This document shows positions 4,690 to 57,025 of a stretch of 64,000 nt of DNA, piece by piece. A model generated the notes under the pieces. It did not search any database. It saw only the letters and a list, made by a program, of their open reading frames with translations, and was not told the DNA's origin. Where the stretch lies: assembly GCA_003963305.1 (NCBI GenBank), contig RXJR01000017.1, positions 1 to 64,000 on the forward strand, written 5' to 3'. This stretch comes from Candidatus Melainabacteria bacterium. GTDB lineage: Bacteria; Cyanobacteriota; Vampirovibrionia; Obscuribacterales; Obscuribacteraceae. Every line of letters begins with the position of its first letter. Position 1 is the first letter of the stretch. The translations under genes and the position numbers were made by a program.

Positions 4690-5143
4690 TCACGTTTTTG
4701 CCTGAAACTACGGCTGGTTCACAGTTTTGCGTGGGTGTCGATTGCGCTAGCTAGCGGTACTTTCTTTCTTACACGTCCTGATGGCTGATGATACCTTGTT
4801 TTTGGCATGTCAAGCGGCGCTATTTTGGGTCTGGACACCGTAAGTGGTGCCAAATCCGGTTGTCATGATAATTGCATATTTAACCACCTTGTCATTAGTC
4901 TTAAGTGTTTTCTTTAGTTCGCTTATCCAGGCTTTTTTACTTTTCTCTTTTAGTTCGCCCTGACTGCTAACAGCAATTTTCCGTAAGTCCTCACAGATTC
5001 TTGTGGTGACACGTAGCTTAGTACGTTTTTCCGACTATCGATCGTGCTGTCACGGTCGCAAACACCCAGTGACTGCATGTGGTGGGACTTCCTGAGAGGG
5101 ACGACCACATGTTGGACGCAGGCTACCCCGAAAGCAACTGCCC
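4690..5143. other. Gene-free stretch
   Basis: These 454 bp separate native DNA from the GC-rich paralogue pair. No frame with coding character, tRNA or strong terminator was found. Composition shifts from AT-rich (near 4870-4960) to GC-rich approaching 5100. Confidence 0.4.
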
Positions 5144-6193
5144 ATGTTCAAGTTTCCGCACTTGGATGTTACGGCGCAGCTTGGCATTACGCCCATCTGC
5201 CTGGTTTCCGACTCGGAAATCTGGACCCACCTCGTAACTCCAACAGTGAAAGGTCTGCTTGGCCCCATCGTTTCGCAGGCCGCGCCAGAGGTTCTTGAGA
5301 CTGTTCAAGGTAAATTCTCTGGCGACGAAGTTTCAAATCTCAACGACCACCGACTCTACGGTGGTAAAACCGGGTTCGTGCGTCACCCGTACATCTACAG
5401 CATGTACAAGACGCTCAACGGTGCTTTCATCGTCAAGCGCGACGGCGTCAAGTTCGAGGCGTTCTGCTGGTACGGCGATATCGACCGCTCCCCTGAGCTC
5501 ATACTCAAGGCGGCGTTGCGCGATCGTCGGTACGATGGAACTCCACGTGCCAATGACACTGCTCTCGTCGACTTCCCATACGACGACCCGAAGCACAATG
5601 CTCCTCTGCACTCTGAGCTGAAGTCTGTCGAGTTGTCCATCTACGGTTTCATGCCGGGGTCTCGCATCGTCGACGCCACGGGTGAGCCGGAGTTCGACCG
5701 CTTCTTCGCCAGCCCCTTCAGCTTCGCGGACAGACCAGAGCTTTTTCTGAAGTACTTCAACCGAGCTTGGAACACGAAACGGGCACCCGGCCAACACGCT
5801 GCACCCATCAGGGATGTGGCGAGTCATGCCCTGCCCGGCTTCGAGCGCATCGCCCGAGCCCATGGATACGACGTGATCGAGATGGCGGCCAGCCACTACC
5901 ACGTCGCGAAATGGGCGCAATCTGGTGGCTACGTGTTCTCGAGCTCGGAACAGGCGCGTGAGTTTGCGTCAATGACCGAGGGGCTGGCAGCCATTCGCGC
6001 TGCTGGTCATCCGCTCACGCGTTCACAGCAATCGTGGGCCTGCGTCGCCCAGAACCTGCCCGCTGAGCACATCCCCGCTGCGCTCAACATGCATGGACCA
6101 CTCTGGATGCAGGACAACCTCGGTCAGAAGTGTCTCTGGGTGCATAAGCCCCTGAGCGAAGCTGCTCATCGACTGCTGTCTGCCCGCATTTAA
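5144..6193 (+). CDS. Uncharacterised protein, tandem paralogue 1
   Basis: The 349-residue protein is a clear paralogue of the next gene, with long shared blocks: LGITP near the N-terminus, YGGxxGFVRxPY, NGAFxVKRDGVK, ALRDRRxDGT, FMPGSRIVDATG, RPELFLKxFxRAWNTKR, SHYHVA and MHGPxWxQDN. No signal peptide or membrane segment is visible. I do not recognise the family. The many conserved Arg, Asp, His and Trp residues suggest an enzyme or nucleic-acid-binding protein, but no known catalytic motif stands out. Third codon positions are strongly G/C and Lys is nearly always AAG, unlike flanking genes such as panC. No good ribosome-binding site precedes the ATG at 5144, so the start is uncertain. Confidence 0.7.
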   Translation: MFKFPHLDVTAQLGITPICLVSDSEIWTHLVTPTVKGLLGPIVSQAAPEVLETVQGKFSGDEVSNLNDHRLYGGKTGFVRHPYIYSMYKTLNGAFIVKRDGVKFEAFCWYGDIDRSPELILKAALRDRRYDGTPRANDTALVDFPYDDPKHNAPLHSELKSVELSIYGFMPGSRIVDATGEPEFDRFFASPFSFADRPELFLKYFNRAWNTKRAPGQHAAPIRDVASHALPGFERIARAHGYDVIEMAASHYHVAKWAQSGGYVFSSSEQAREFASMTEGLAAIRAAGHPLTRSQQSWACVAQNLPAEHIPAALNMHGPLWMQDNLGQKCLWVHKPLSEAAHRLLSARI

Positions 6194-6324
6194 TACGACG
6201 TTCGGTCTAAGCGCAACGAAACAATGCGCGTCGGCATTGCCGATACCGATTCGGGTTCAGCCGGTTGACACCAATAGCGGTGCTAACCGGCTGTGCCTAT
6301 CCGCCGAATTTGAGGACAACCCTT

Positions 6325-7392
6325 ATGAGGAAATTCACCTTTCAACGGCTCGACGTGCTCGAGTCTCTCGGCATCACGCCGCTTACTTTAGTCACAGATG
6401 AGCAAATCTGGACTGAACTTTTCACCCCGATGACGAGGGCTCTGCTCGGCGACATTCTGGACTTCACCCGAGGTATCAGAGAGACCGTCGAAGGAGACTT
6501 TCCGGGTGACCAGGTCTCGAACTTGAACAACCACCTGCTGTATGGCGGGCAGAGCGGATTCGTCCGCTTTCCCTACCACTCGACGGTGTATCGAACCACC
6601 AACGGTGCCTTCGTCGTCAAACGCGATGGTGTCAAGGTCAAGGCCTTCGGCTGGTTTGGCGATTACAAGAACGGCAACGCCGAGCTGATCTTCATGTGCG
6701 CCTTGCGTGATCGTCGCTTCGACGGCACGAAACGCGCCAACGACACGGCTCTGCTCGATTTCGAGTTCGACGACCCCACGTACAACAGCCGCCTTGCCAT
6801 CGATGGAAAGCCCATCGACGCCTCGGCTTGCGAACTCTCCGCTTACTGCTTCATGCCTGGTTCTCGCATCGTCGATGCGACTGGCGACGCCGAATTTGAC
6901 CAGTTCGTCGAGAAGCCGTTCACCTTCCTGGATCGACCGGAGCTGTTCTTGAAACTGTTCTGGCGCGCCTGGAACACCAAGCGCTCGCCCGGGCAGAATG
7001 CGGTGCCGATTCCGGACGTCAGCAAGCTTCTGCTGCCGGCATTTGCTCGCATCGCCAGGAAGCTCGGTTATGACTTCATTCAGAACGCGCCCAGTCACTA
7101 CCACGTGGCGTTGTGGACGCGGAAGTACGGCTATGACTATGTCGACCCTGCACAGGCGAAGGTCATGGCTGAACTGGCTGCCGGCATCAAGCGCCTCAAA
7201 GCAAATGGTGTCAAGCTGACTCGTTCGCAGGAGTCGTGGGTATGTGTCTTGCAAAGTCTTCGCGAGGACCTCATTCCCGAGGAACTCAAAATGCATGGTC
7301 CGAAGTGGCCGCAAGACAACATCACTCAGGAAAACCTGTGGATGTACCAGCCTCTGCACGATGGTGCGAAGCAGCTGTTTCCGAAGAAGTAA
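6325..7392 (+). CDS. Uncharacterised protein, tandem paralogue 2
   Basis: The 355-residue paralogue of the preceding gene shares its conserved blocks in the same order, plus about 10 extra residues in the middle (near LAIDGKPIDASACE). The start MRKFTFQRLD at 6325 fits the N-terminus of its partner and has TGAGGA about 9 nt upstream; an ATG-less extension to 6265 is less likely. No known domain, signal peptide or membrane segment is recognised. The 131-bp gap between the copies has dyads such as AGCCGGTT/AACCGGCT near 6259-6292. GC-rich codon use matches its partner, and a terminator follows at 7428, so the pair looks like one self-contained acquired unit (inference). Confidence 0.75.
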   Translation: MRKFTFQRLDVLESLGITPLTLVTDEQIWTELFTPMTRALLGDILDFTRGIRETVEGDFPGDQVSNLNNHLLYGGQSGFVRFPYHSTVYRTTNGAFVVKRDGVKVKAFGWFGDYKNGNAELIFMCALRDRRFDGTKRANDTALLDFEFDDPTYNSRLAIDGKPIDASACELSAYCFMPGSRIVDATGDAEFDQFVEKPFTFLDRPELFLKLFWRAWNTKRSPGQNAVPIPDVSKLLLPAFARIARKLGYDFIQNAPSHYHVALWTRKYGYDYVDPAQAKVMAELAAGIKRLKANGVKLTRSQESWVCVLQSLREDLIPEELKMHGPKWPQDNITQENLWMYQPLHDGAKQLFPKK

Positions 7393-7427
7393 TTCGGCTC
7401 AAGCACTTCCATGAGCTGGAGTGAAGG

Positions 7428-7470
7428 CAAGGTGACGGGCTCTGCCCCGATCCTTGTTTTCATTCATTTT
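7428..7470 (+). terminator. Rho-independent terminator after the paralogue pair
   Basis: Outer arms CAAGG (7428-7432) and CCTTG (7452-7456) and inner arms CGGG/CCCG form a stem followed by TTTTCATTCATTTTG on the plus strand. Confidence 0.6.
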
Positions 7471-7532
7471 GTTACTAGAGCATATAGCAGGCATTGCATG
7501 TGGTGGCTTGGTCGGGAGTGAATTTTGTCGCC

Positions 7533-9458
7533 TCAAGCAAAGAATTGCGACGTGTATCTTTCCTGATTAAGCGCCGTCATTGTTTGTCCGATGTATTTGC
7601 CCGGAATGTCCAGGTGCCGCACATTGGTCGATGCGAACACGATAGAGCGTTGCGCCATGGCTGCACCGTGTCTTCCCACTTGATCGCCACCGCTGTAGTC
7701 GGCTACATAGTTGTTTGTCGGCAACCCTCTGGACCTCAGCAGTGACGCGACGAAATTAGCCTGTGCGCGGCTGTTTGATGCAGTTGAGCTGTTGGAGAAG
7801 TTATAGAATTGTTTTCGTCCTGCGCTCAGATCGGCTATGTTGTTTTGCAACCATTGATCGAAGCCATGCCTGTCATATAGCGAGTCGAGAAGAGTAATGC
7901 TGCGTACTTTGTTGGACAAAGCAGGGTTTCGGTAGATTTCTTTTTCGGTTGGTGAATACCCTGCCGAGTGGGCAATTATGTCTACTCTATCGATGTTTGA
8001 AAGGGATGCGCCCTGTAGAGCAGGAGTCTTTTGCAGCGTTTCCTGGACCATAGCGGCAAATTTGTTTTGTTGCCCGAGAGTGCCGGAATTGCCGCTCCTA
8101 GACCCCGGATTGGTCTGCCATTCCGGTAACATGAGCACTGTATTTGGTTCCGCGTGTGACATCATCTCTCGGATTTGGTTTTTACTCAAGGCACTGGTGA
8201 CTGTGCTGCCAAATCCATGGTTGTAAACCGCAAGATGAATCGGTTTCGACGGATCGAAATCGCTTCTGACGTACACCAGCGCATCCGCGCCTGCATGATT
8301 GCCGACTCTGTTATCCAGTCGCAGTTCTTTGAAGGTGCCATCGGTGACGGTCTGAGAGCCGCGGTCTGGTCGTCCGATACGACTATCGAATCTTTCGGTG
8401 CCGGGTCGATCGAGTGGACCCAGGCTCTGGTCATAAGACCTCGGCTGTTGATAGCGTTGATCCTGGCTCTGGTCATAAGACCTCGGCTGTTGATAGCGTT
8501 GATCCTGGCTCTGGTCATAAGACCTCGGCTGTTGATAGCGTTGATCCTGGCTCTGGTCATAAGGTCCTGGCTGTCGATAGCGTGGATCCTGGTAACGAAT
8601 GGACTCCTGAGTGGGACCACTGTAAGCAACGTCCTGAGTTGCACCTCTGTAAGGAGCCAAATCCTTGTTCTGTCCACGGTAAGGACTTATTTCCTGGTTC
8701 GGTCCATATGAAGCTTGATCGGATGCTTGTCCCTGGTTCCAATTTCCGGAATCTCTATAAATCGGCGGTGGAACATAAGGCACCGCATCCGGTCGATAAG
8801 TGGGGTCTGGGTATTGCCTTGGCGCAGGTGACGTGAAGTTGTCGCCCGACGGGCTAATGCCATTTTGATTTAATTGCGGCGCTCTTCTAGGCGGATAAGG
8901 GTCTCCGAATTGGAGCTGATCGCCTCCTGGTGCAGTTGCGCGCTGCTGAGTACGAAGATGCGCGGCCTCTGTCGTGTGTCTCTCCTGCCCGGAGCCGACC
9001 CGATGTTGGGGTGTCGGGGGGTAATGGACCGGCGGTACTTCCAGGCTGTGGCTTTGCGAGTCGGGGTGCTTACCACGCCCGGACACCTGGTGTTCGTTCT
9101 TTCGCTCGCTGTGCTCCTTTTGTTCCTTATGCTCTTTCGAATCTTTATGTTCTCTATGGTCCTTTTCGTCCTTGTGGCCTTTTTGACCCTTTTTGTGCTC
9201 AAGATGCACCTGATTATGGTCATCGACGCGCAGATGAAGGTTCGGTAGATAACCGTCTTTATGCAGTTTTTGCTCGACTTTGTGCACATCATGACCGAAT
9301 TTGTCGTGATGAACGACGCCCTGATGCGAGTCTAGCTTCTGAAGCTTATGCAGTTCGTCGTGAATGACAGAGCGAGTTCGTTCGCCATGATGGAGGCGAG
9401 CCTCGATCTCGTGAGCGATGCGCGTGGCATTATCGTCGTGTCGTCGGTCTGCAGTCAA
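7533..9458 (-). CDS. Large low-complexity protein with C-terminal alpha/beta-hydrolase-like domain
   Basis: The 641-residue protein has three parts. The N-terminus (about 1-130) is rich in His, Lys and Glu, with runs of the form EHKDSKEHKEQKEH. The middle (about 130-380) is Pro/Gln/Tyr-rich and includes a 14-residue tandem repeat containing DQSQDQRYQQPRSY. The C-terminal 240 residues look like an alpha/beta hydrolase: strand IHLAVYNHGFGS, then VDIIAHSAGYSP as a nucleophile elbow with Ser in AHSAG, and a late His near GRHGAA. There is no Sec signal or membrane helix. The substrate is unknown. It heads a group of three leftward accessory genes. The hydrolase call rests on motif spacing and is moderate. 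Confidence 0.7.
   Translation of the reverse strand: MTADRRHDDNATRIAHEIEARLHHGERTRSVIHDELHKLQKLDSHQGVVHHDKFGHDVHKVEQKLHKDGYLPNLHLRVDDHNQVHLEHKKGQKGHKDEKDHREHKDSKEHKEQKEHSERKNEHQVSGRGKHPDSQSHSLEVPPVHYPPTPQHRVGSGQERHTTEAAHLRTQQRATAPGGDQLQFGDPYPPRRAPQLNQNGISPSGDNFTSPAPRQYPDPTYRPDAVPYVPPPIYRDSGNWNQGQASDQASYGPNQEISPYRGQNKDLAPYRGATQDVAYSGPTQESIRYQDPRYRQPGPYDQSQDQRYQQPRSYDQSQDQRYQQPRSYDQSQDQRYQQPRSYDQSLGPLDRPGTERFDSRIGRPDRGSQTVTDGTFKELRLDNRVGNHAGADALVYVRSDFDPSKPIHLAVYNHGFGSTVTSALSKNQIREMMSHAEPNTVLMLPEWQTNPGSRSGNSGTLGQQNKFAAMVQETLQKTPALQGASLSNIDRVDIIAHSAGYSPTEKEIYRNPALSNKVRSITLLDSLYDRHGFDQWLQNNIADLSAGRKQFYNFSNSSTASNSRAQANFVASLLRSRGLPTNNYVADYSGGDQVGRHGAAMAQRSIVFASTNVRHLDIPGKYIGQTMTALNQERYTSQFFA
8423..8590. 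repeat. 42-bp in-frame tandem repeat
   Basis: Four units of 42 bp start at 8423, 8465, 8507 and 8549. The first three are nearly identical and the fourth is diverged. Each encodes 14 residues (reading DQSQDQRYQQPRSY) on the minus strand within the low-complexity middle of the 7533-9458 protein. Confidence 0.95.
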
Positions 9459-9515
9459 TGTAGTAATCCTTGTGACATCATCTTATGGAGACAAAGTTAC
9501 CAGTATGTTACGGGG

Positions 9516-10154
9516 CTACGCGCTCGGGCGCAGGTTGCCCAGCGGCGTTTCGGTATCCAGTACGTCGAAGTCATGAAACTTTCTCTTTTCGTGGGGTTTG
9601 TCAGTCCTTATGGCTGTTTCTTTGCGGATGCTGCCGTCCGTGTGTTGCGTAAAGAAGCCCTTACCTGTATCGACTGTGTAGCTGCCATCAGCATTGTGTT
9701 TGGCGATGATCCGCCCTGATGGGTCTTCGACGTTACCGTTCAGCTTGCCTACATTTGGTGGCAGTATGTGCACGGCCATGTTGTTTTTGAAGGTGATTCG
9801 CATGCAGTTGCCGATATCAACTGGTTTTCCGCCGTCAGTTGTAGAGATAATGACGCCGTTTCCGTAGTCGACAGTCGTCGTTTGGGCGCCATCTTTTTCG
9901 ACTGAATGTTTTCGGACAACTCCCGCATCCTGCAGATCACGATTGCTGGCAACTTTTCCGGTGCGTTCTTGGCTCGATGAATCGGCGATTTCCACTGCCG
10001 GCAAAATGCCACGCTTCAAGAGCAGGCTATCGCACAAGTCGGGCTGCGTTTGCGGAAAACCTTTGATGTCGGCAAACAGATCAAGAAATTTGTGGTGGCT
10101 TGAATGGTGCGCATCTGCTGATTTCATTTCTTCGACGTGATGATGTTTGCTCAT
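9516..10154 (-). CDS. Uncharacterised protein with His-rich N-terminus
   Basis: The 212-residue protein begins MSKHHHVEEMKSADAHHSSHH and has no signal peptide. The second half is a series of short beta-strand-like units with alternating Gly, Asp and aromatic residues (such as GRIIAKHNADGSYTVDTGKG), like the stranded repeats of extracellular or RHS-type proteins, though no true RHS/YD motif is present. GTGGAG lies about 10 nt before the ATG. It lies between two other leftward accessory genes and resembles the 10292-10996 product in style. I do not recognise a family. Confidence 0.65.
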   Translation of the reverse strand: MSKHHHVEEMKSADAHHSSHHKFLDLFADIKGFPQTQPDLCDSLLLKRGILPAVEIADSSSQERTGKVASNRDLQDAGVVRKHSVEKDGAQTTTVDYGNGVIISTTDGGKPVDIGNCMRITFKNNMAVHILPPNVGKLNGNVEDPSGRIIAKHNADGSYTVDTGKGFFTQHTDGSIRKETAIRTDKPHEKRKFHDFDVLDTETPLGNLRPSA

Positions 10155-10291
10155 TTTTCAATAACTCCACGTTAATGCTGCCCTCTTGAGAGGGGCTCTA
10201 GTTGTGCTGTATGCCATGATTTGGTGTGGGTATTTATCTGCCCGATGCTTAGACTTTAGAGAGATGCTGTATCAAAGTTGTTTACGCGGTC

Positions 10292-10996: not shown

Positions 10997-11251
10997 GGAT
11001 AAATCCTCCGAACGCCGCTTGTGTCTTGATGAAGCGAACCTTACACCTGTTCTGTATACAAGTTGTTTATGTCTCTGTCGGCTCTTGACTGGAAAATATG
11101 GAACGGGCTGAAAGCGAGACTAGGTGCCCTCTAGCGCTGCTGTCAGCCGTCCATTTCTGGCGAAACCAATTAAATTTGTGGGTTGGCAAGTCTCGTCAGT
11201 CGAGTGCATAACCGATGCAGCAAATCTAACCGGCTTTTGTATCAAAGTTGT

Positions 11252-13060: not shown

Positions 13061-13136
13061 GACATGCTCCGCATTCCCGTCTTCATATGGTACTTGCTAA
13101 TATGGCAGTCGATGGATCTGAAGAGACGCTTGTCTA

Positions 13137-16333: not shown

Positions 16334-16690
16334 TCATCGCTTGCCTTCGAGATCCTCGTAGCGAATGATGGCGACGACGAAGGCAAAGAATACGATCGCG
16401 CTGATGATGATGCCGCCGATCAAAGATGCCAGCATCGTCCAACCGAAGTACGCCGCGGCAATGCAGCTCAGAATCGCCCAGCCGCTTGTCGTATTGACGA
16501 TGGTGCGGTTGTGGCGGTTGAAGAGACCGTAAATCAGTGCGGCAGCGGCGACCACTCCGAACATGTTCGCCAGAATGATTGGCATCAACCCATTCTTGCT
16601 GAGACAAGCGACGAGAATCGCGTCTGTCTGCAGAAAGCCAAGAAGGCAAGCGATGATGGTGACGATGCCGAAGAAGTTTTTCTGTGCCAT
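16334..16690 (-). CDS. Small membrane protein with about four helices
   Basis: The 118-residue protein starts at MAQKNFFG (16690). It has four hydrophobic segments: FGIVTIIACLLGFLQTDAILVA, GLMPIILANMFGVVAAAALIYGLF, GWAILSCIAAAYFGWTMLAS and GGIIISAIVFFAFVVAII, and ends in a short charged tail (RYEDLEGKR). I recognise no family. It follows a second membrane protein gene on the same strand, with a strong hairpin between them, and a terminator comes after. Base composition is GC-rich like other modules in the window, suggesting shared origin. Confidence 0.65.
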   Translation of the reverse strand: MAQKNFFGIVTIIACLLGFLQTDAILVACLSKNGLMPIILANMFGVVAAAALIYGLFNRHNRTIVNTTSGWAILSCIAAAYFGWTMLASLIGGIIISAIVFFAFVVAIIRYEDLEGKR

Positions 16691-16784: not shown

Positions 16785-17081
16785 TCAGAGCCCGTCGATG
16801 TGACGGCCGCGCTGATTCTCGGGGCTGTCCGGGTCGGACGAGCTGCGGCGATCGTCGGCTTCGCGGGGCTTGTTCCGCTCCTCGATCCAGCCTTGCAGGT
16901 CGTAGAAGACGAAGCTGAGGAAGAACCACAGCACGAATCCGACCAGCACAGATTGACCAGCGACAGCGACGACGTCACCGCCCTTGAAGGCAGTCGACAA
17001 CACGCTGAAGCCGAAGTAGAAACACATGATCCAGAAGGTGAAGAGACCTCCGTAGACCACAGATTGACCAAAGCGTCCCAT
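16785..17081 (-). CDS. Small membrane protein with two helices and charged tail
   Basis: The 98-residue protein starts at MGRFGQSVVYGG (17081), where GAGGT lies 5 nt upstream; the longer frame to 17192 has no such site. Two helices are visible (GGLFTFWIMCFYFGFSVLS and AVAGQSVLVGFVLWFFLSFVFY), then an acidic/basic tail rich in Asp, Glu, Arg and Ser (EERNKPREADDRRSSSDPDSPEN region). No family is recognised. It is upstream of the four-helix membrane gene on the same strand and probably shares its promoter, so the two could work together (inference). Confidence 0.6.
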   Translation of the reverse strand: MGRFGQSVVYGGLFTFWIMCFYFGFSVLSTAFKGGDVVAVAGQSVLVGFVLWFFLSFVFYDLQGWIEERNKPREADDRRSSSDPDSPENQRGRHIDGL

Positions 17082-18008
17082 GATGTACCTCACAACATCG
17101 CTGCGCGATGTGTTTACACTGCCGGCGTTCCCATCTAGGCGAGCAGGATACTGACCGAATGCATCACTGTTCTGCCAAACCTGGCGGAACAATGGGCGGA
17201 AGTAGTGATGCGTTCAGTTTTTTGGTGTTCTTAAAGCTTTAGTGGACGAAGGAAAGATGTCTGCATCGTAAGCGTGCCGGCACCCAAGTGCAAGAGGGCA
17301 CGGGCGCAGCTCTTGTAAACGTTGTTAACTGTTGACGGGGCGTACGCCAGGCACGTGAGGCGGAAACACCTCTAGCGCACTGTTGCGGGGCAGGTGTTCA
17401 TGACGGGTCGCTTTACAATCCGCCGTGCCTGAGGCGCTACAGATCTAGCGCGGCTACGTCATTGCTGAGGTCGGGTGCGACATGAGGTTAGCGGTTCGGG
17501 GGCGCGTCGGAACTGTCAGTCAGCAGTGAAGCAGGGGATGGCTTTGTGGTCGGTTTAATTACCGGCCAGTCCTGGGCGTTGGCTCGATACCGACCGCCTG
17601 GGGATTGCTTACTGACCGGTCGCCCTGCGGGTGGGCTCATTCACCGCACAGCCCGGGGGGGCGCCACGGTTTTCCATGTTCAGAGAGTGCTCGGCATCAG
17701 ATCCATACCAGATACTACTCGTGGTGGCGATATGCAATAGATATACCTGCCTGGTGACTCCGAATTTAGTGGCATCAATTTTTTTGCTTTTCAAGATCTA
17801 GGGAAATGGCCATGCACCACCTGTGGTTAATACCTCCTGAAAGTGTCATTAGTAGCTGCTTCAGGTGCAGTGTCTTATTTTATCGGTATATGGCTGGTAC
17901 TATATGAGCCATCAACAAGATGGTATCGCCGGTGAAGATTTTTACTCATGGCGAATATATTGTGTTATCCTTCGGGATGTGTTGGAGGCGTCACTAGAAG
18001 GAGCATTT
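17082..18008. other. Long gene-free region, GC-rich in the middle
   Basis: About 930 bp without a convincing gene. It contains the leader of the leftward membrane genes, including an inverted repeat GCATCACT/AGTGATGC at about 17161-17213, a GC-rich block from about 17270 to 17670, and an AT-richer stretch before the next gene. Open frames here lack ribosome-binding sites and coding bias. A decayed gene or regulatory RNA cannot be excluded. Confidence 0.4.
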
Positions 18009-33874: not shown

Positions 33875-34406
33875 ATTTCGTGTTACTACCCGTGTGTGTG
33901 ACCTCGACTATATCGCTTTGCTGACGTGCACGCATGAGAATCTGTTGCCGGTGTTCCGAATATTTCCTGGATATTCTGCGAGCCGCTGAGAGCTCGCGCA
34001 ATGGTGGCGCAGCATTTTATAAATTCTATAGAATTGGCTCTCTGAGACATTCTTCGTGAAGTAAAGTGGAGTGGATGTTAAGGATAGCGGCAGCCTCGCT
34101 AGGCAAATTAATGGGCAGGGATCAGGTTTCGCGCGATGTTATAACAAGTGAAGCCTATGTATACGTACTTATATTGAGATCACTTAGATCTCGTTGCTAG
34201 GCTCTCTGGGTCACCCCGTTTACCGACTACCTCAAGGCTCACATCTAGCACCAGCCTTTCTTTCTCTTCGCCAAATATTTTTTCTGCGCAACTAACTCAG
34301 TCGCAGATCACCGACCCGATGCTGAATTCAGAGGCTTCATGCGCTGAAATCGGCTTCAGGCGTTGGTCTTCGCTTCCACGCCCTTCGGGCATAAAGGAGA
34401 CCTACC
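33875..34406. other. Gene-free leader region upstream of the beta-CASP gene
   Basis: About 530 bp without a gene. AT-rich promoter-like DNA (around 34025-34040 and 34150-34190) precedes a GC-rich leader. A short inverted repeat CGCTGAAATCGGCTTCAGGCG lies around 34341-34361, and AAAGGAGA at 34393-34400 is the ribosome-binding site of the next gene. Confidence 0.4.
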
Positions 34407-35960
34407 TTGACCAAACAAGAACAAAAGCGCGTTGCTCGCACAGGGCAGCCGCTGCTGAAACTTCACGTCCTCGGCGCCGCAGGTGCTGTGACGGGCTCGC
34501 TCAACCTCTTCGAGTACATCGAACGCGACCGCGTCACGCGCTTCCTCGTGGACGTTGGTCTGACCGTGGAAGATGAACGTGCTGACTTCATGAATCGGTT
34601 GCCGGTCGGCATCAAGCCTTCCGACATCGACTTCATCATCATCAGCCACGCCCACATCGACCACAGTGGTTATCTTCCGAAGCTTGTCAAGGACGGATTC
34701 AAAGGGCCGGCTTACCTGACGCCTGCGTCTTCGGATCTGCTCCAGTTCATGCTTCCGGATTCCGGTTTCTTGCAGGAAGAAGCGGTGAAGCGTGCCAATG
34801 CGCGCAACCGCAAGAACCTGCCCGCCACCGAGGGTGGTGCGAGCGATGGAGTCAAGGCTCGTGGCAACGTGCCGCAGCGGCAGCCGCTGTACACCCAGGA
34901 ACACGCCAAGCAGTCGCTCCAGCACTTGCGGACCATCCCGTACAACGAGCGGCGCGAACTGGCTCCCAACGTCGCGGTCACGTTCACCGATGCCGGACAC
35001 ATCCTCGGCTCCGCCGTGGTCAATCTGGAAATCGGCAGTGGCTCAAGCAAACGCACGTTCTGCTTCAGCGGCAACATCGGTCGGTACGACATGCCTCTCC
35101 TGTCGGAGCTGGAGTCTGTGCGCTCGGCCGACTACGTCATGGTCGAATCGACCTACGGCAACAAGCTGCACAACCGTCGCGACCGCTTCCCGGTGCTCGC
35201 CGACATCATCAACCGTGCTCATGTGCGGGCCCTCGAGAAGCACCCGAAGTTCGGCTGCGGCGTGATCATGATTCCCGCTTTCGCTGTCGGCCGCGCTCAG
35301 GTGATCATGCATGACCTGCGCCAGCTCATGGCGGAAGGACGCATTCCGCAGATGCCGGTGTTCATCGACAGCCCCATGACCATCCGGTCCACTGAAGTGC
35401 ACCGCAAGTACCGCGATGCCTACAACCCGTTGATGCGCGCGCTCTTCGACGCGGAGGTGGACCCGTTCACCACGCCCGAGCAGACCCTGTGCCACGACTG
35501 GAAGGAGTCTGTCGCACTGCTTGAGCCCCAGAGCAAGCCGATCATCATCATCGGCTCCAGCGGCATGGCTTCGGGTGGACGCATCGTGCAGCACCTGCAG
35601 CACCGCCTGCCGGCTCGTCAGAGCACGGTGGTGTTCGTCGGCTACCAGGGCACCGGCACGCTCGGCCAGACCCTCGTCGGCGGGCTGCGTGAAGGCAATC
35701 CTGACGCGCGGCCGACGTCCGTGCGCATCAGCGGCAAGGATGTTCGGGTGAACGCGGCGATCGAGTTCATGCCGGACTATTCCGCGCACGCTGACTACGG
35801 CGACACGATTCGCTGGCTGCGCGGCTTCCAGCGCCGCCCCCGCAGCATCTTCCTCGTGCACGGTGACACCGATGCGCTCGAGGGGCTGGAGGGGCACATC
35901 AAGAATTCGCTCGGTTGGAACGTTGTCGTTCCGAAGGCGAAGCAGGAGTTCGTGCTCTAA
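34407..35960 (+). CDS. Beta-CASP metallo-beta-lactamase-fold RNA nuclease-like protein
   Basis: The 517-residue protein starts at TTG 34407, decided by AAAGGAGA 6 nt upstream. The MBL zinc motif SHAHIDHSGYLP carries His81, His83, Asp85 and His86, with further metal-site elements in FTDAGHILGSA and ESTYGN. The beta-CASP part includes IPAFAVGRAQVIMHDL and FIDSPM, and the C-terminus has GYQGTGTLGQ, DYSAHADY and LVHGDTDALEGL. The layout matches CPSF73/YSH1-type bacterial RNA-metabolising hydrolases, which are exo- or endonucleases. A linker near residue 135-155 is unusually Ala/Gly/Arg-rich. Composition is GC-rich, unlike neighbours on either side. Confidence 0.92.
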   Translation: MTKQEQKRVARTGQPLLKLHVLGAAGAVTGSLNLFEYIERDRVTRFLVDVGLTVEDERADFMNRLPVGIKPSDIDFIIISHAHIDHSGYLPKLVKDGFKGPAYLTPASSDLLQFMLPDSGFLQEEAVKRANARNRKNLPATEGGASDGVKARGNVPQRQPLYTQEHAKQSLQHLRTIPYNERRELAPNVAVTFTDAGHILGSAVVNLEIGSGSSKRTFCFSGNIGRYDMPLLSELESVRSADYVMVESTYGNKLHNRRDRFPVLADIINRAHVRALEKHPKFGCGVIMIPAFAVGRAQVIMHDLRQLMAEGRIPQMPVFIDSPMTIRSTEVHRKYRDAYNPLMRALFDAEVDPFTTPEQTLCHDWKESVALLEPQSKPIIIIGSSGMASGGRIVQHLQHRLPARQSTVVFVGYQGTGTLGQTLVGGLREGNPDARPTSVRISGKDVRVNAAIEFMPDYSAHADYGDTIRWLRGFQRRPRSIFLVHGDTDALEGLEGHIKNSLGWNVVVPKAKQEFVL

Positions 35961-35986: not shown

Positions 35987-36041
35987 CTGGAGCCTGACTC
36001 CAGTTGGTAGCCGGGTCGGACTGCAGTTAACTGCAGTCCGA
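35987..36041 (+). terminator. Two hairpins after the beta-CASP gene
   Basis: CTGGAG/CTCCAG (35987-36003) is followed by a perfect 26-nt palindrome at 36016-36041 whose arms read TCGGACTGCAGTT and AACTGCAGTCCGA. T-richness after it is limited (TATCGGTTTACC). Confidence 0.55.
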
Positions 36042-36163
36042 TATCGGTTTACCTGGCACAACATTCAGCGCCACGGCTTTCCTTAAGGAGCGAGCACTGA
36101 GCTCGACTCTTCGTACGTCAAACCTGAAGCGACTGAACGTCGCTTACCAAGGAGAACATTCAT

Positions 36164-36394
36164 ATGTGCAAGCAGAACATGGCTACCACGACCGGTGGCT
36201 CGGGGCAGCAGGCTCCGAACAGCAACTGCACCTGTCAGCGCGGTGCTGCTGGCGGGTGCTCGTCTCGCGGTCGTTTCAACCTCGCCGAGGTGGCTGAGCA
36301 GCCCCTGGGCATGGTGCATCACGTCGACCCGTCGCTGATCCAGGTCGGGCTCCCCGGCGGCAAGGGCGTCTTCGACCAGACCCATCGGGCCTGA
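36164..36394 (+). CDS. Small Cys-containing protein (76 residues)
   Basis: The short protein begins MCKQNMATTTGG and has Cys at 2, 22, 24 and 32 (NCTCQRGAAGGC), a Ser/Gly/Gln-rich N-terminal half, and a more ordered C-terminal half (RFNLAEVAEQPLGMVHHVDPSLIQVG). The start is convincing: ACCAAGGAG 9 nt upstream, identical to ribosome-binding sites of two other GC-rich genes in this window, and a strong terminator follows. No family is recognised. It could be a small metal-binding protein or a peptide precursor; neither is demonstrated. Confidence 0.65.
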   Translation: MCKQNMATTTGGSGQQAPNSNCTCQRGAAGGCSSRGRFNLAEVAEQPLGMVHHVDPSLIQVGLPGGKGVFDQTHRA

Positions 36395-49136: not shown

Positions 49137-49224
49137 AACGATACTGGGCACAAAAAGAACTCTGGTCGTGATAGTCTAGAGCCCCGCATCCCAGTCCGAC
49201 CAATACGGTCGCTTCCACTAACCA

Positions 49225-49677: not shown

Positions 49678-49792
49678 AAACTCTAAAATCAAGCAATTTC
49701 TTTTTGATAAATAGCTCAGTCAGAATATTCGTGGTTACTCAATATGTGCGAAAATTTGTTTTGCAAATAGAGTTCCCATCAAGATCGTTAAC

Positions 49793-50488: not shown

Positions 50489-50491
50489 AAA

Positions 50492-51790: not shown

Positions 51791-51983
51791 GGAAACCTCT
51801 CCTCTGAAATGACGGAGGTCAATAATCTCAAAACCTGTCCGTTTAAGCTATGGGCTGACACTTCCTTGTTGCCAATGTTCACGAGATTTATGGACGACTG
51901 GCTTTTAACGGCATGCAGCTGAACCCTGCTGTTGTGGTATCGTATATGGTGCCAATTTGGACAAATTTTTTTTAGTGAAATGA

Positions 51984-52068
51984 CAAAAAGAAGAAAGAGC
52001 GATGGTGGCCTGCGCCACCATCGCCCCTACCCGTTCAATCCCGGGACACCGAAAGTGGTGCGCCCGGG
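51984..52068 (-). terminator. Terminator pair after the DUF4139-like gene
   Basis: GCGATGGTGG (51999-52008) pairs with CCACCATCGC (52015-52024), a perfect 10-bp stem followed on the minus strand by TCTTTCTTCTTTTTG. A second hairpin with CCCGGG arms at 52040-52068, with an inner CACC/GTGG pair and GAAA loop, lies between this and the stop codon. Confidence 0.85.
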
Positions 52069-52090
52069 TCATCAATGCGGGTCAGTTGCT

Positions 52091-53671
52091 TCAGTTGATC
52101 CGGTACTTGATGCGGTACGAGACCGTCGCCTTGCCGTTGGCGGGGACGGAGACGCGCATGGTGCCGGCGGTGTTGTTGGAGTCGACGAATTCCGGGCGCT
52201 TGATGAACTCGGCCTTGTCGGGGAAGGCTTCGCTCACCAGCACTTCGACGTCGGTGCCCTTGTAGTTGAAGATGGTGACCTCGCGCTCTTCCTCGCGGAA
52301 GAGAGGCTTGACCACCTTCTTCTTCTTGCCGCCCTCGGGCTCCGCTGCCACGACGGCCGGGCGCATCGACATCGCCGCCATCCTGGGACCGGTCTCGACG
52401 TCCGCGTCCGTGTCGACCGGCAGTCCGCCCTCGGGCGTGACGACCTGCTCGGGCTCGGGGTCCGGCTGGTCCTGATGCAGGAACGTGAGCCGGCGAGTCG
52501 CCTTGACGTCGGCGCTCGGCTTGCGCAGTTCGAGCTTGAACGGCTCGCCCTTGGCGCGCGCTTCCACGACCGCGGCATCGACCTTCTGCTCGGCGCCCGA
52601 GCTGTCGTAGACGAAGAACGCCACCTCGCCCGCCGGCATGTCCTTGCCGAGGTTGCTGGCCTCATCGTTCTTCACCCGCAGGCGCACGGAGACAGGCAGC
52701 TTGGCGCTGTCTTCCTCGACCACGCCCTGGTTGTAGGCGTAGTAGTTGGCGGGCAGGAAGAGCTCGACCTGCACCGGCACGCCTTCGGCGAGGAAGAGGT
52801 TGCAGTTCTTGGTGGCCGTGGCGCCGATGCTGAGCGCATCGGGCAGCACGTACATCTTCTGCTCGCCGACCGTCTCGACGCCAGCGTCGTCTGCCATGAC
52901 CGACTCGAGAGCGGCGCCGCCACGAGCCGACATGGCCATCGGTGCTGCCGCTGCCATGCGCACGCCGCCCTTGGGGAAGTTGCGCCGGCCCGAGCCGAAG
53001 TTGTTGCCCGTGAACAGCTTGAACTCGCCGTCGTCGATCTGCAGACCGCTCTGGTTGGTGATGTCGACGACGCATTCGAAGCGAGTCAGGGTGCTCGTCG
53101 CCTGGTCGAAGAAGGCGTTGTAGCGCGCCGCCCAGTTGATGCCGTCCGCTTCGTAGAGGAAGCGCACCTGGTACTTGCCGGGCTCGTTCACCGACGGTTC
53201 GAAGACGAGAGAAGGCGTGTTGGCGAGCCCTTCGGGCACGCCATCGCTGAGCTCGAACTTGGGCGTGAGCGGCACCACGACGATGCTGCCTTCCTGCTCG
53301 AGCACGACCTGGTTGCCGAGCACATAGCGAAGGATGCCGGTGGTGCGCACCGGACCCTGCTGCGTCTGCTCGATCAGAGTCACCTTGGAGTCGACCGCCT
53401 TCTGCAGGATGGCGGCGCCGCTCATGTTGGCGGGCTCGTAGCTGGACGAGCCGATGTTGAGCACACCCGGACCGGAGGCGCCCAGCACGACGAGACTGTT
53501 CTCGACGAATGCGGTCGGCAGCCCATCGAGCTGCACCGAGTTCTTGCCCTTGATGAGCGCCAGTTCGCGGCTTTCGCGGATGACGGCCTGCCCGCCCTGA
53601 TAGACGGTGAGCTTCAGCTGCCTTGAGGCGGCCGACTTGCGCAGAGAGCGCTTGCGATTGTTCGTAGCCAT
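52091..53671 (-). CDS. DUF4139-like beta-rich protein
   Basis: The 526-residue protein begins with a basic stretch (MATNNRKRSLRKSAASRQ) and has GAGGAT about 10 nt before the ATG. The family pattern is WAARYNAFFDQATSTLTRFECVVDITNQSG (region about 180-215) followed by the inserted Ala/Met-rich segment near MAAAAPMAMSARGG and a C-terminal immunoglobulin-like beta domain (REVTIFNYKGTDVEVLVSEAFPD, SVPANGKATVSYRIKYRI). DUF4139 proteins are of unknown function, some linked to mucoidy or envelope. No signal peptide is evident. Lys is almost always AAG, and a long open antisense frame results from this codon bias. Confidence 0.75.
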   Translation of the reverse strand: MATNNRKRSLRKSAASRQLKLTVYQGGQAVIRESRELALIKGKNSVQLDGLPTAFVENSLVVLGASGPGVLNIGSSSYEPANMSGAAILQKAVDSKVTLIEQTQQGPVRTTGILRYVLGNQVVLEQEGSIVVVPLTPKFELSDGVPEGLANTPSLVFEPSVNEPGKYQVRFLYEADGINWAARYNAFFDQATSTLTRFECVVDITNQSGLQIDDGEFKLFTGNNFGSGRRNFPKGGVRMAAAAPMAMSARGGAALESVMADDAGVETVGEQKMYVLPDALSIGATATKNCNLFLAEGVPVQVELFLPANYYAYNQGVVEEDSAKLPVSVRLRVKNDEASNLGKDMPAGEVAFFVYDSSGAEQKVDAAVVEARAKGEPFKLELRKPSADVKATRRLTFLHQDQPDPEPEQVVTPEGGLPVDTDADVETGPRMAAMSMRPAVVAAEPEGGKKKKVVKPLFREEEREVTIFNYKGTDVEVLVSEAFPDKAEFIKRPEFVDSNNTAGTMRVSVPANGKATVSYRIKYRIN

Positions 53672-53782
53672 TTCGTTTGATCCTCATCGCTTTGTTGCTG
53701 CTTTGCCTGGCTGCGACTGACTGTCGACCCGGCGGTGCGGCAACGAAATCTAGTCAGCTTGCGCTGACGGGTCATTAGCCTT

Positions 53783-53845
53783 GCGGGTGGGCAACGTGTC
53801 CACCCGCTATTTGAACTGAGCCTGAGCAGGCTTCGAGAGCCTGCT
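53783..53845 (-). terminator. Two hairpins after the 53855 gene
   Basis: GCGGGTGG/CCACCCGC (53783-53807) and AGCAGGCT/AGCCTGCT (53825-53845) form perfect 8-bp stems between this gene's stop and the DUF4139-like gene start; no T-run follows. Confidence 0.55.
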
Positions 53846-53854
53846 AATAAGACA

Positions 53855-54688
53855 TTACGCTCTGCCGGTGGCGTAGCGTTTCTCCTCCGGCGGCAGCGCT
53901 TCCGCTGACATCGGAGGCTGGGTGTCGGGCCACAGAACCTCGGCGGCGGTGAGGAACTGTTCGGCCCGGTCGAGGAACTCCTCGGCGCGTTCGAGCAGCA
54001 CATCGGGCAGGAAGTCTTCCGGTCCGACTTCGAACTCGAGCACGTACATGCCGTCACGCGTCGGAATCTGCTCGACGAGTCGCTCGGCATCGCGAAGGAA
54101 GCAGACCTGCGGCTTGGCCGTGTGACCGAGCAACAAGTCGCGGCTTGGGGTGCGGACACCGGTGTCTGACGGAGCGATGCCTTCATCGTCAGGCACCCTG
54201 ATGATGGCGTCCATCTCCATCGGGGCGATGATGTAGGTCAAACGCTCCGTCGCACCCGCTTCGGCCGCCGGCTGTTGACCGCCGATTAGGTTCTTGCTGC
54301 CCGAGGTGCTCGCCGCATGGTCGTCGCCCGAGAGCCGCATCAGGGCCTTGAGCACGAGCGAATCGACATCGGGGAACGGGAAGGTGTCCTTACCGACCCC
54401 GGGAACAACGACCATCTTGCCGCGCCGGTTGACGTGAGCAAGCGGGTCGTGAAGGCGCACGCGCACAGCCGGTCCCGGGTTGGGAGCGGTGATGGCGATG
54501 TTCTCGGCAGTGTCCATGATGGCGGCTGCCACACAGCACTGCTGGCCACTCAGAACGAGGAGACCGGCGACTTCGCGCGAGACCTCGTTGGGTTGGGGGG
54601 CTTTCAACGGTCCGACGGCGTTGACGAGCCTGTCATATCGCCGCAAGAAGGCTTGCAGGCGCCGATGAAAGATGTCTGGCGTATTCAT
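53855..54688 (-). CDS. Uncharacterised 277-residue protein
   Basis: No family is recognised. The start is firm: ACCAAGGAG about 7 nt before the ATG, as in two other GC-rich genes. The N-terminus is helical (MNTPDIFHRRLQAFLRRYDRLVNAV), followed by a beta-rich domain (AGLLVLSGQQCCVAAAIMD, KMVVVPGVGKDTFPFPDVDSLVLKAL), a short disordered linker (GSKNLIGGQQPAAEAGATER), a second domain with LTYIIAPMEMDAIIRVPDDEG and a C-terminal helix (LPDVLLERAEEFLDRAEQFLTAAEVL). No signal peptide. It is upstream of the DUF4139-like gene on the same strand, so they may form one unit. Confidence 0.65.
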   Translation of the reverse strand: MNTPDIFHRRLQAFLRRYDRLVNAVGPLKAPQPNEVSREVAGLLVLSGQQCCVAAAIMDTAENIAITAPNPGPAVRVRLHDPLAHVNRRGKMVVVPGVGKDTFPFPDVDSLVLKALMRLSGDDHAASTSGSKNLIGGQQPAAEAGATERLTYIIAPMEMDAIIRVPDDEGIAPSDTGVRTPSRDLLLGHTAKPQVCFLRDAERLVEQIPTRDGMYVLEFEVGPEDFLPDVLLERAEEFLDRAEQFLTAAEVLWPDTQPPMSAEALPPEEKRYATGRA

Positions 54689-55352
54689 ACAATTTCTCCT
54701 TGGTCGGTCCTTGATTGGAACGACAATTACGAGAATTCAGCTGCGCGAGGCGGATGCTTCACACAGCTAAACAGGCATATTTCACGCATCGCAACGACCC
54801 AGCGCTCTTCAGACACACCTGCGTTCGTCCCAGCTCAACCCCCGATCTCGAAGAGACCAGAAAATATCGTGTTGGGAAAAGCACAAGCTTTGACTGTGTT
54901 TTGCTGAAAGAGCCTGAATAACGAAACGAACGTGAATACGCTCAATCTAAGAAATCACAGGACTTTGCTCACACTTGCCAACCTCGATTGTGTGGTGTGT
55001 TGAAGCATATCTGCGGCGTATGGGATGGTTGCACTAGCTGCATTCCCTGAAAAGCCGGGCTATCCGCAAAGTGTTGCAAAGACTTCCTCCGCGGAGTTTG
55101 TTTAGTCTTGTTATGCGGTGCATATGGTGGTATCCATAGTGGTCGCCTGCTTATTAATACATGCTTAAATTAGCTCCTGGAGCCATCTTGACGCTAGCGC
55201 GGGTGTCAGAAGTTCTGTTAAATACTATATGGATGAATAGATGCGGGTCCAAAAAAATCTGGTCAGCATGGTGAACGCTTCATGTGCGTTTCATATCCAT
55301 GCTGCCAGATCTCTTGTCGGTTGCGTTTCCAAATTGCGTCCCTTGCATCTAG
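54689..55352. other. Long gene-free region
   Basis: About 660 bp between two leftward GC-rich genes. No frame shows coding bias. It contains the promoter candidate at 55224-55252 and AT-rich DNA around 55150-55230, and otherwise nothing I can assign. Confidence 0.4.
55224..55252 (-). promoter_or_regulatory. Candidate leftward promoter with long leader
   Basis: On the minus strand TTGGAC (55252-55247), a 17-bp spacer and TATAGT (55229-55224) form a near-consensus sigma-70-type promoter. The nearest leftward start is at 54688, leaving a leader of about 530 nt. Confidence 0.4.
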
Positions 55353-55910
55353 TTAAGCGCACTTGTCGAGTAGTGGAATGCCCAGCACCAGTCTGTTTCC
55401 AGACGTGCGCCGTTCGAGCACCTGCTGGCGGAGTCCGTCGCAGAAGCTCTTGAGGGCAATTGAGGTAGCCAGCGAGCCGGCAGATTCGCACAGATTGAGC
55501 TTGCCTGTCCGCAATGCGAGCACGACAAATTCCTTCTGCAGACCGTCGATAGCGCCGGCTTCGAACAAGCGGTCGTTACCGGCGCCACCACCTGTGATGG
55601 CGATGCAGGGAACGTTCAGCCTGGTGAGAAACGCGACGAACTTGACGCCGTCGTTGACCGGTCCGCACAAGCCGCCATCGCACAGGGCGATGTCGAATTG
55701 GGTCGGGTCGATTTCGATGAGGCGGGAGACGTCACCGTCGAAAGCGTCGCCCATGGGGTCAGCTGACGGATTGGCGCGGATGCCGACGATGCGACCGTTT
55801 TCCAGTCGTTGAGCGCCGACGATCCAGGTGTAAACATGACCGCGCTTTGCCAGCTCCTGTTGAATGGGAATGGCGAATGCGGCAGAGTCTTCGATAAGGA
55901 GTACGTTCAT
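55353..55910 (-). CDS. Single-domain receiver-like protein with insert
   Basis: The 185-residue protein starts at MNVLLIEDSAAF (55910), with AGGAGG 7 nt upstream. It resembles a response-regulator receiver: Glu7/Asp8, phosphoacceptor-like Asp78 in FDIALCDGGLCGP, Thr106 in CIAIT and Lys126 in DGLQKEF, with spacing close to canonical between the last three. About 25 extra residues (33-65, VGAQRLENGRIVGIRANPSADP region) lie between the first helix and the phospho-Asp strand. No output domain follows. No kinase is adjacent. It could be a stand-alone phosphorelay protein or a pseudo-receiver. Confidence 0.65.
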   Translation of the reverse strand: MNVLLIEDSAAFAIPIQQELAKRGHVYTWIVGAQRLENGRIVGIRANPSADPMGDAFDGDVSRLIEIDPTQFDIALCDGGLCGPVNDGVKFVAFLTRLNVPCIAITGGGAGNDRLFEAGAIDGLQKEFVVLALRTGKLNLCESAGSLATSIALKSFCDGLRQQVLERRTSGNRLVLGIPLLDKCA

Positions 55911-56033
55911 GACGCAGCCTCCTGAACGGGATGTTTTAGACAACGCAAATGCCCGTAATGTCATTTGTGCTGCCCGAAGCGAGTGGCAGACGGGTTATTC
56001 CGTCTGTTGTCGTTTCGAGTCGAGTGGAGATGG

Positions 56034-56078
56034 AAGCAAACGACCCGAGCCTTTCGGATTTGCCCGGGTCGTTTGCTT
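56034..56078 (-). terminator. Terminator-like hairpin after the 56090 gene
   Basis: AAGCAAACGACCCG (56034-56047) pairs with CGGGTCGTTTGCTT (56065-56078), a perfect 14-bp stem with a 17-nt loop, immediately downstream of the leftward 56090 gene. Confidence 0.7.
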
Positions 56079-56089
56079 GCCGGAGAAGG

Positions 56090-56539
56090 TCAGTCGGTGA
56101 ACAGGACCGGCTGCTGGTGGATGGAGTCGAAGCCGTCGTCGCTGTTCCCGACGTAGTTGGCTTCGTGCTTGTCGCCGTTGAAGTCGGACTGCAGGAGCAG
56201 CTCGATGCGCGCCGATGCGCCGACCTTGCTGGCCACGTACTGCACGGCCGATTCGATGGTGGCGGCAGTGTCGGTGGTCGGGCAGGTCTCGCTGAAGCTC
56301 GGCGGCGTGGCGGCGAAGAGGTCGATGTCGTTGGTGTGGATGTAGAACCCGTCGACCGGCGTGCCGTTGGACGGAATGCTGGTGCGGTCGATCATGATCC
56401 AGACGAAATTGTTGCTGCCGCGGTCGCCGGTGAAGCGAACGCGCGAGCTGCGAACGTCGGGCTGATGCGCCTTGTTCACGATCGCCTCGAGAGCGCTGCG
56501 AACGGCATCTTCCACTTGCGGCGATGCAAATGCGGTCAT
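56090..56539 (-). CDS. Uncharacterised 149-residue protein
   Basis: No family is recognised. The start is well supported: ACCAAGGAGG 5 nt before the ATG. The protein opens with a helix (SPQVEDAVRSALEAIVNKAHQ), followed by strands (RVRFTGDRGSNNFVWIMIDR and VDGFYIHTNDIDLFAA), a second helix (TAATIESAVQYVASKVG) and strands (ARIELLLQSDFNGDKHEANYVG). This alternation of helix and strands suggests a small alpha/beta fold. There is no signal peptide. A strong hairpin follows. It lies upstream of the receiver-like gene on the same strand, 179 bp away. Confidence 0.62.
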   Translation of the reverse strand: MTAFASPQVEDAVRSALEAIVNKAHQPDVRSSRVRFTGDRGSNNFVWIMIDRTSIPSNGTPVDGFYIHTNDIDLFAATPPSFSETCPTTDTAATIESAVQYVASKVGASARIELLLQSDFNGDKHEANYVGNSDDGFDSIHQQPVLFTD

Positions 56540-57025
56540 ATAACCTCCTTGGTACTACTTCGGGTGCAGTCAAATACGAAAACCGGGACCCGATTGCCTG
56601 GTTCTCGTGAGTGAACATCCTGATAAGACCTTTGAGAATCTGCAGCCTTGCTTTTGGACGACCTTCTCTACACCTGTGCAGGCGAGAAAATAGTGTCAAG
56701 AAAGTAGTGAGGCTTTAGTTCTTCTGTAGGCTCTTATCAGATGTATCGGAAATGGACTTTCACCCTAACTCCGGAGTAAGAACGGTCGCAACCAGGCACT
56801 CATCTCTGAGCCGCCGGCAAGAGCAACAGTCTCTGTTGGAGGAGGTTCGCCTGCTTGCGGCACAGGTACGGATTATCGGCATATTTATGGGGGTGCCAGT
56901 AGGCACTATCAGCCACCCGCTGCTCAGCTATTGCGGGAATATAAAGCAAAGATTAAAAGCTAGCGCGTCGGCGCGAGCTTGGCTGCCGCGATTTAGCGCG
57001 ACCTGGCGCGGGTCTTCTCATTCGT
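56540..57025. other. Gene-free region between leftward genes
   Basis: About 486 bp without a convincing gene. It should hold the promoter of the 56090 gene and the terminator of the TPR/tadA operon (hairpin 56958-56979). An open frame at 56752-57123 is not supported. Confidence 0.4.
56951..56979 (-). terminator. Terminator after the TPR gene
   Basis: AGCTAGCGC (56958-56966) pairs with GCGCGAGCT (56971-56979) with one mismatch and a 4-nt loop; CTTTTAATC follows on the minus strand. Confidence 0.55.

Follow-up and report, generated by a model that had tools for sequence, protein, structure and literature searches.

GC-rich gene modules in a Melainabacteria genome are probably native units of a codon-optimised class that leaves out ribosomal protein genes

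Modules of GC-rich genes (A to E) are scattered among ordinary genes in the 64-kb stretch of Candidatus Melainabacteria DNA analysed here, hereafter the window, and they raise the question of whether such genes were acquired or are native. An earlier note had proposed several independent insertions from one donor or, alternatively, common expression demands. The ten module genes (Table 1) have GC3 values of 0.69-0.90, compared with 0.52 (SD 0.05) in ordinary genes, which corresponds to z scores of 3.4-7.6 and to the 91.7th-99.2nd percentile of the sampled genome; the preference for G/C-ending codons that the note described is real. Its statement that lysine is almost always AAG holds for the large D gene and module E (100%) and for module C (82%), but module A reaches only 67-73%. 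The ordinary genes in module-bearing stretches have a native GC3 (0.536 against 0.524), in line with the note's description. hisS and mutL are interleaved with the modules. An Rfam search of the window gave no matches, and neither att-like borders nor mobile genes were seen for the modules.

Table 1. Module genes and associated features in the window. G002 is a genome of the same genus.
Feature	Position	Strand	Description
Module A gene 1	5144-6193	+	349 aa, no Pfam match, GC3 0.69; tandem paralogue of A gene 2 (56% identical)
Module A gene 2	6325-7392	+	355 aa, no Pfam match, GC3 0.73
Module B gene 1	16785-17081	-	98 aa, hydrophobic stretches, GC3 0.78
Module B gene 2	16334-16690	-	118 aa, hydrophobic stretches, GC3 0.73
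Module C beta-CASP metallo-hydrolase, RNase-like	34407-35960	+	517 aa, GC3 0.81
Hairpin 3' of beta-CASP gene	36016-36041	+	perfect, 11 bp, GC-rich
Module C small gene	36164-36394	+	76 aa, GC3 0.82; ACCAAGGAG ahead at 36146-36154
Module D gene 1	53855-54688	-	277 aa, no assigned function, GC3 0.78; ACCAAGGAG ahead
Module D gene 2, DUF4139-like	52091-53671	-	526 aa, GC3 0.90; weak N-terminal DUF4140 match; Lys is AAG in 31/31 codons
Hairpin and T-rich tail 3' of D gene 2	51999-52024	-	perfect, 11 bp, GC-rich
Module E gene 1	56090-56539	-	149 aa, no assigned function, GC3 0.88; ACCAAGGAG ahead
Stem 3' of E gene 1	56034-56078	-	perfect, 14 bp, 17-nt loop, read from sequence
Module E gene 2	55353-55910	-	185 aa, GC3 0.70; weak response-regulator match, below cut-off
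Element, leader A	4740-4761		GATTGCGCTAGCTAGCGG..., 16.8 bits
Two element sites, leader B	17369-17382 and 17442-17455		
Element variant, leader C	34125-34138		TTCGCGCGA; kept in place in G002
Element, leader D	55191-55204		kept in place in G002
Element cluster, leader E	56957-57013		site 56957-56970 kept in place in G002

The modules belong to a class found throughout the genome. Genes with high GC3 make up 146 of 1291 sampled genes, roughly a tenth, and as the sample covers about 1.6 of 7.5 Mb, with some stretches picked after earlier matches, this share of about 11% is only rough. Genes were called with a simple purpose-written codon-model caller, which leaves small genes and start sites uncertain, and the class was separated from ordinary genes by a cut through one GC3 distribution with a shoulder. 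In class genes GC2 is unchanged and GC1 rises from 0.57 to 0.62. Their leaders are near native in GC content (0.50 vs 0.47), while the intergenic gaps of class operons have a somewhat higher GC content (0.54 vs 0.47); the alien flanking noncoding DNA expected of acquired islands was not found.

The shift in codon usage is codon-specific, running toward C- and G-ending codons in nearly all codon families. AAG and CAG reach.96 and.97 in the class, and Lys CTT and Gln CTG tRNAs are present. GAG reaches only.77, GGG falls and GTG stays level, and our tRNA search found no Glu CTC, Gly CCC or Val CAC tRNA. The fit is partial for Arg and for the Leu codon TTG, as tRNAs Arg CCG, Arg CCT and Leu CAA are present, yet the matching codons do not rise. 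Hardly any A-ending codons are left in the strongest members, T-ending ones outlast them, and the first codons of class genes are less biased. The genome also holds extra tRNA arrays. An Akashi-type accuracy test was null (odds ratios 1.02-1.19, Z <= 1.66), with preferred codons not concentrated at conserved sites. Overall, the codon bias of the class matches the tRNA gene complement, and local base composition does not account for it.

Translation initiation is distinctive as well. AGGAG ribosome-binding sites are about threefold commoner in class genes, and AAGGAG is found in 20% of the class (32% of strong members) vs 4.9%. The ribosome-binding sequence that the earlier note had seen shared, ACCAAGGAG, is indeed present at all three places, and it precedes ATG at 12 places genome-wide compared with 1 for a control. 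Only the three sites in this window, however, lie before class genes, the others being before ordinary genes, in a contig-end repeat or without a called gene, which rules it out as a class signature. The class-wide initiation feature is a strong Shine-Dalgarno sequence, not ACCAAGGAG. Downstream, GC-rich perfect stems (at least 9 bp, within 130 nt, loops of at most 12 nt) occur after 29% of the strong class members, compared with 15% in the rest of the class and 8% among ordinary genes, a count that misses stems with longer loops like that at 56034-56078. Hairpins are thus enriched, but across the whole genome it would be an overstatement to place them after most genes. The long leaders were borne out: divergent gaps have a median of 514-991 nt where class genes are involved and 274 nt otherwise.

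Class units also have in common a palindromic upstream element, T[T/C]GCGC[T/G]AG, found in 69% of them, in 28% of ordinary units of the same stretches and in 16% of those elsewhere. The difference extends to held-out genera (78% vs 39%, P 3e-4) and to G024 (70% vs 4%); in G008 the element fails to separate the classes, and in G029 the separation is not significant. The exact 10-mer is not overrepresented genome-wide. Conservation in place between species was seen in all four leaders compared (A, C, D and E), and in leader A, itself divergent, ATTGCGCTAGCTAGCG is identical in G002. A further pattern picked out by eye, CATATAGTA, did not yield a separate motif; its seed drifted to a GC-rich pattern. 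A common upstream element conserved between species is what would mark a regulon with a shared operator, and the element is a good candidate for one.

Codon optimisation is usually calibrated on ribosomal proteins and taken as a mark of fast growth. In this genome EF-Tu, EF-G, S12, S7, the L2 region, GroEL and ATP synthase (AtpA, AtpD) all fall among ordinary genes. The ribosomal proteins and translation factors that a highly expressed class would include are therefore outside it, and classical growth-linked codon bias is ruled out. That ribosomal and other growth genes lack the codon usage of the class is a twist the earlier note had not foreseen. Identifiable members are the PrkA-DUF444-SpoVR cluster, MoxR/vWA, several peptidases, beta-oxidation enzymes and pyruvate-phosphate dikinase. 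The PrkA-DUF444-SpoVR cluster, with two tandem PrkA genes, is among the most codon-biased found (GC3 0.86-0.93), and YeaG, the E. coli PrkA, is required in sustained nitrogen starvation (PMC4664914). The identifiable members suggest a starvation or maintenance programme, a theme that rests on a minority, as many members have no known function.

If the modules were acquired islands, relatives should lack them at the corresponding positions. In G002, modules A, C, D and E occupy their places in the same order, and A, C and D occur together on one contig in another genus (G011:C10). Synteny does not hold throughout the genus, as in G001 (87% complete) modules A and C are missing and D finds no more than a weak match. 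A search of 36 relatives gave orthologues of module A gene 2 in 15, most of them high in GC3, and GC3 of beta-CASP orthologues is raised across the family, in which this gene broadly tracks the relationships of ribosomal protein L2. Raised GC3 is mostly kept at deep divergence in the beta-CASP, tandem-pair, DUF4139-like and PrkA/DUF444/SpoVR genes, and it is still high at 35-60% protein identity, which argues against foreign origin, since foreign codon usage would have faded. Contaminating or chimeric contigs are ruled out by the interleaved genes and the gene order in G002. Judged from these sequence comparisons, the class recurs throughout one Melainabacteria family and does so in the same gene families.

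Collectively, we favour, with a probability of about 0.6 for the reading as a whole, a gene set that is inherited vertically, regulated jointly and subject to translational selection for abundance outside growth, with the GC-rich modules as native transcription units of this genome-wide class in one Melainabacteria family. A regulator would act at the upstream element and turn the units on jointly, and strong initiation with optimal codons would give high protein output. The active state, which we infer from the identifiable members named above, would lie outside growth, in starvation, maintenance, and turnover of protein and reserves. Counting against this reading, class genes crowd certain parts of the genome (C17, C8, C10, C20, C2, C44 and C7) and of relatives (e.g. 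G029:C5 and G024:C4), which expression alone does not predict. Such crowding would suit an old plastic compartment, a chromid or variable region whose genes, with their own codon usage, were kept and exchanged within the family, as would the absence of tRNA matches, 59 in all, from C17, C8, C2, C44 and C7. We consider a compartment unlikely, because co-located ordinary genes have native GC3, hisS and mutL sit among the modules, and the tRNA fit and strong ribosome-binding sites would be left unexplained. Recent insertion of modules whose donor was a GC-rich large phage, plasmid or integrative element is highly improbable: composition does change sharply gene by gene, class genes do cluster in some contigs, and A and C are missing from G001, but the conserved order of A, C, D and E in G002, linkage in other genera, the descent of beta-CASP, persistent GC3, native GC2, near-native leaders and the lack of att-like borders and mobile genes all speak against it. 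Conserved order, descent and the leaders lead us to reject foreign insertion, and with it the single donor of the earlier note, whose other proposal, common expression demands, is supported by codons, ribosome-binding sites, terminators and the upstream element; its interpretation is, overall, partly supported.

Could base composition or decoding, rather than selection for abundance, account for the codons? GC-biased gene conversion has been proposed for bacteria (PMC4450053), and it or another local mutational pressure would accommodate the rise in GC1, the slightly GC-richer gaps between class genes and the null accuracy test. It is nevertheless very unlikely, as adjoining ordinary genes are unaffected, GC2 and leaders stay near native, and falling GGG, lagging GAG and T-ending codons outlasting A-ending ones are unlike symmetric GC pressure. 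State-specific decoding, in which tRNA pools or modifications outside growth translate the class best and codon choice is itself a regulatory signal, has a precedent in mycobacterial hypoxia (PMC5114619) and would fit the near absence of A-ending codons from the strongest members and the extra tRNA arrays; we hold it quite unlikely, as ordinary transcriptional control is already available through the upstream element. It is likewise unlikely, on a par with the compartment, that the class forms a second codon dialect, a co-regulated tenth or so of the genes best decoded by a non-growth tRNA pool while growth machinery is left unoptimised; if true, one genome would hold two codon regimes, each serving its own physiological state.

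The favoured gene set, selected for abundance outside growth, resembles several known systems in part. Translational selection as described by Supek et al. (2010; PMC2891978) also concerns a gene subset with codons fitting the tRNA genes, which here goes with stronger ribosome-binding sites. In that work, however, likeness to ribosomal protein genes defines the optimised set, whereas here ribosomal genes are ordinary. Krisko et al. (2014; PMC4054840) described codon adaptation in stress gene families that is linked to lifestyle, and here too codon optimality of a family would signal conditions important to the organism; the present class is distinct in comprising a large genome share, in having an upstream element in common and in excluding ribosomal genes. 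When mycobacteria persist under hypoxia (PMC5114619), their tRNA modifications change and single codons, e.g. ACG, are enriched, likewise marking a non-growth programme by codon usage, whereas here nearly all codon families shift. The YeaG-YeaH-SpoVR cluster of starved bacteria (for YeaG, PMC4664914) similarly joins PrkA, DUF444 (YeaH) and SpoVR; here the PrkA genes are tandem and the codon class is common to many unrelated genes.

The family consists of large-genomed, non-photosynthetic relatives of cyanobacteria, and it appears to have kept strong optimisation outside ribosomal genes over deep divergence. GC-rich codon islands in metagenome-assembled genomes are not necessarily foreign DNA or contamination. 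If expression data confirm the favoured reading, then such selection would escape growth-rate predictors built on the codon bias of ribosomal genes, many unknown gene families could be placed in a single programme, and codon usage would reveal the dominant physiological state of an uncultured organism.

Using a purpose-written two-class codon model for gene calling, we found that all ten genes of the five GC-rich modules (A-E) fall in a high-GC3 class and that the adjacent genes lie outside it. The module genes thus stand out in codon usage as the earlier note had claimed, with GC3 of 0.69-0.90 (z 3.4-7.6) among ordinary neighbours; hisS, mutL and the kinases of the window are of the ordinary class. 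The window covers the first 64 kb of a contig of 138 kb; the genome comprises 7.48 Mb in 44 contigs, and we sampled 1.6 Mb of it (80 stretches, 1291 genes). Its size, GC and relatives indicate Obscuribacteraceae as the probable family. GC3 in this sample has its bulk near 0.53 and a shoulder at 0.70-0.95, and the high class holds 146 genes, a rough share because some stretches were picked following earlier matches. Class genes are concentrated on certain contigs, and 56 of the 80 stretches contain none. Separately, ACCAAGGAGCGCAGCATG recurs at four contig ends (C2, C8 at both ends, and C44; L001, L003, L004, L012) and probably represents a mobile element or a repeat that breaks the assembly.

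Features located in the window and on other contigs of the same genome
Feature	Location	Locus	Remarks
Predicted beta-CASP nuclease-like protein (module C)	window:34407-35960		Scores against type VII CRISPR Cas14 and archaeal aCPSF1 models far under cut-offs; belongs to another subgroup
VIT-domain protein, 1053 aa	window:41685-44846		Ordinary codon class; large unknown genes next
tRNA array, 9 genes	C32:170902-172288	L158	Compact
tRNA array, 6 genes	C21:87383-87951	L162	Compact
tRNA array, 4 genes	C31:247389-247918	L156	Compact

The class includes two PrkA proteins, DUF444, SpoVR, AAA_2 proteins, MoxR, an S41 peptidase and peptidases M3, M16 (two), M24 and M48, together with a thiolase, an acyl-CoA ligase and FadB-like, PPDK-type and glycogen-debranching-like proteins. 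YeaG, the E. coli PrkA, is required under sustained nitrogen starvation (PMC4664914). Usually, ribosomal genes define the optimised codon set (PMC2891978); here the picture is reversed, and ribosomal proteins are left out, as are EF-Tu, EF-G, GroEL, GroES, AtpA and AtpD.

The earlier note had offered two readings of the modules, derivation from one donor or element by several insertions and common expression demands. Modules A, C, D and E are not insertions. In G002, of the same genus, E and D adjoin hisS in the same order with GC3 still raised (0.64-0.76), and a single contig carries D, C and A in collinear order, although A and C are absent from the congeneric G001 (87% complete). D, C and A also share a contig in G011, of another genus, and several genera keep A and C close together, within roughly 5 to 55 kb of each other. 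Beta-CASP relationships broadly track those of L2 (rho 0.44, same close groups); for module A, tandem paralogues make the comparison less clear. Raised GC3 itself persists: orthologues of the DUF4139-like gene of module D have 0.76-0.88 in 13 family genomes including G002, with the AT-rich G020 as the exception (0.26), and a distant relative in G008 has 0.64. Ten loci in mid-GC genomes of the family show raised GC3 in the PrkA-DUF444-SpoVR cluster, and in G020 the cluster, at 0.30-0.45, still exceeds ribosomal genes (0.24); it is not raised in two other families (G043, G048). Beta-CASP and module A genes behave likewise, but in G008, G020, G017 and G019 the effect is weak or absent. Foreign codon usage is not expected to persist over such divergence. 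Taken together, order in G002, linkage in G011, beta-CASP descent and persistent GC3 make foreign insertion very improbable.

In G020 (L114, L203; stretch 40% GC), the DUF4139-like gene has lost high GC3, and a gene beside DUF444 retains AAG in 14 of 15 Lys codons; perhaps the class is eroding there. Ordinary codons are found in a second, distant group of DUF4139-like paralogues, whose neighbourhood is conserved in several family genomes (L116, L119, L120 and others).

The shift is codon-specific. In the strongest members AAG reaches.96 and CAG.97, but GAG no more than.77; GGG drops from.10 to.06 and TTG from.22 to.01, and GTG reaches a plateau. A-ending codons are almost gone from four-codon boxes, where T-ending ones are partly retained. 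Since, in addition, GC2 is nearly unchanged, leader GC is near native and adjoining ordinary genes are unaffected, this looks like selection on codons rather than GC pressure on DNA. Biased gene conversion (PMC4450053) is accordingly very improbable: GGG falls, GAG lags, and GC2, leaders and neighbours stay near native. First codons are less biased. A codon accuracy test was null, which makes efficiency more likely to be what is selected. Among the tRNA genes detected are Lys CTT and Gln CTG; Glu CTC, Gly CCC and Val CAC are missing from that set. A codon dialect tied to tRNA state (PMC5114619) seems to us quite unlikely, and an old plastic genome compartment a little less so. The anticodons of the three tRNA arrays largely duplicate single tRNA genes elsewhere, and they may represent phage- or plasmid-type arrays or else serve a special tRNA supply. 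Among openly licensed papers we found none on codon classes in this bacterial group; a related idea is lifestyle-linked codon adaptation of stress families (PMC4054840).

Class genes are also enriched in flanking signals. AGGAG precedes 36% of them and 46% of the strongest, versus 11.5% of ordinary genes. Of the strongest, 29% are followed by a perfect GC-rich stem, versus 8.4% of ordinary genes; genome-wide, this falls short of the hairpins "after most genes" that the earlier note saw in the modules. A palindromic upstream element is common to class leaders: 69% of class units carry GCGCTA or its complement, against 28% for ordinary units of the same stretches and 16% elsewhere (control words of equal composition, median ratio 1.0). 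Genome-wide, the exact 10-mer shows no excess; therefore, the enrichment is of class leaders. Sites occur on both strands, mostly 275-460 nt 5' of the start codon. A weight matrix trained on this genome matched 78% of class leaders versus 39% in other genera (P 3e-4) and 70% versus 4% in G024; it did not separate the classes in G008, nor significantly in G029. When this genome is aligned with G002, each of the four leaders examined has a strong site pair in one and the same column, a match equalled by 0, 0.7, 0 and 0.6% of random shifts.

From these conserved features we infer a regulator, joint expression and a particular physiological state for the class. The regulator would act at the upstream element, and strong terminators would close the long-leader transcripts; high output in a non-growing cell may come from strong ribosome-binding sites together with optimal codons.
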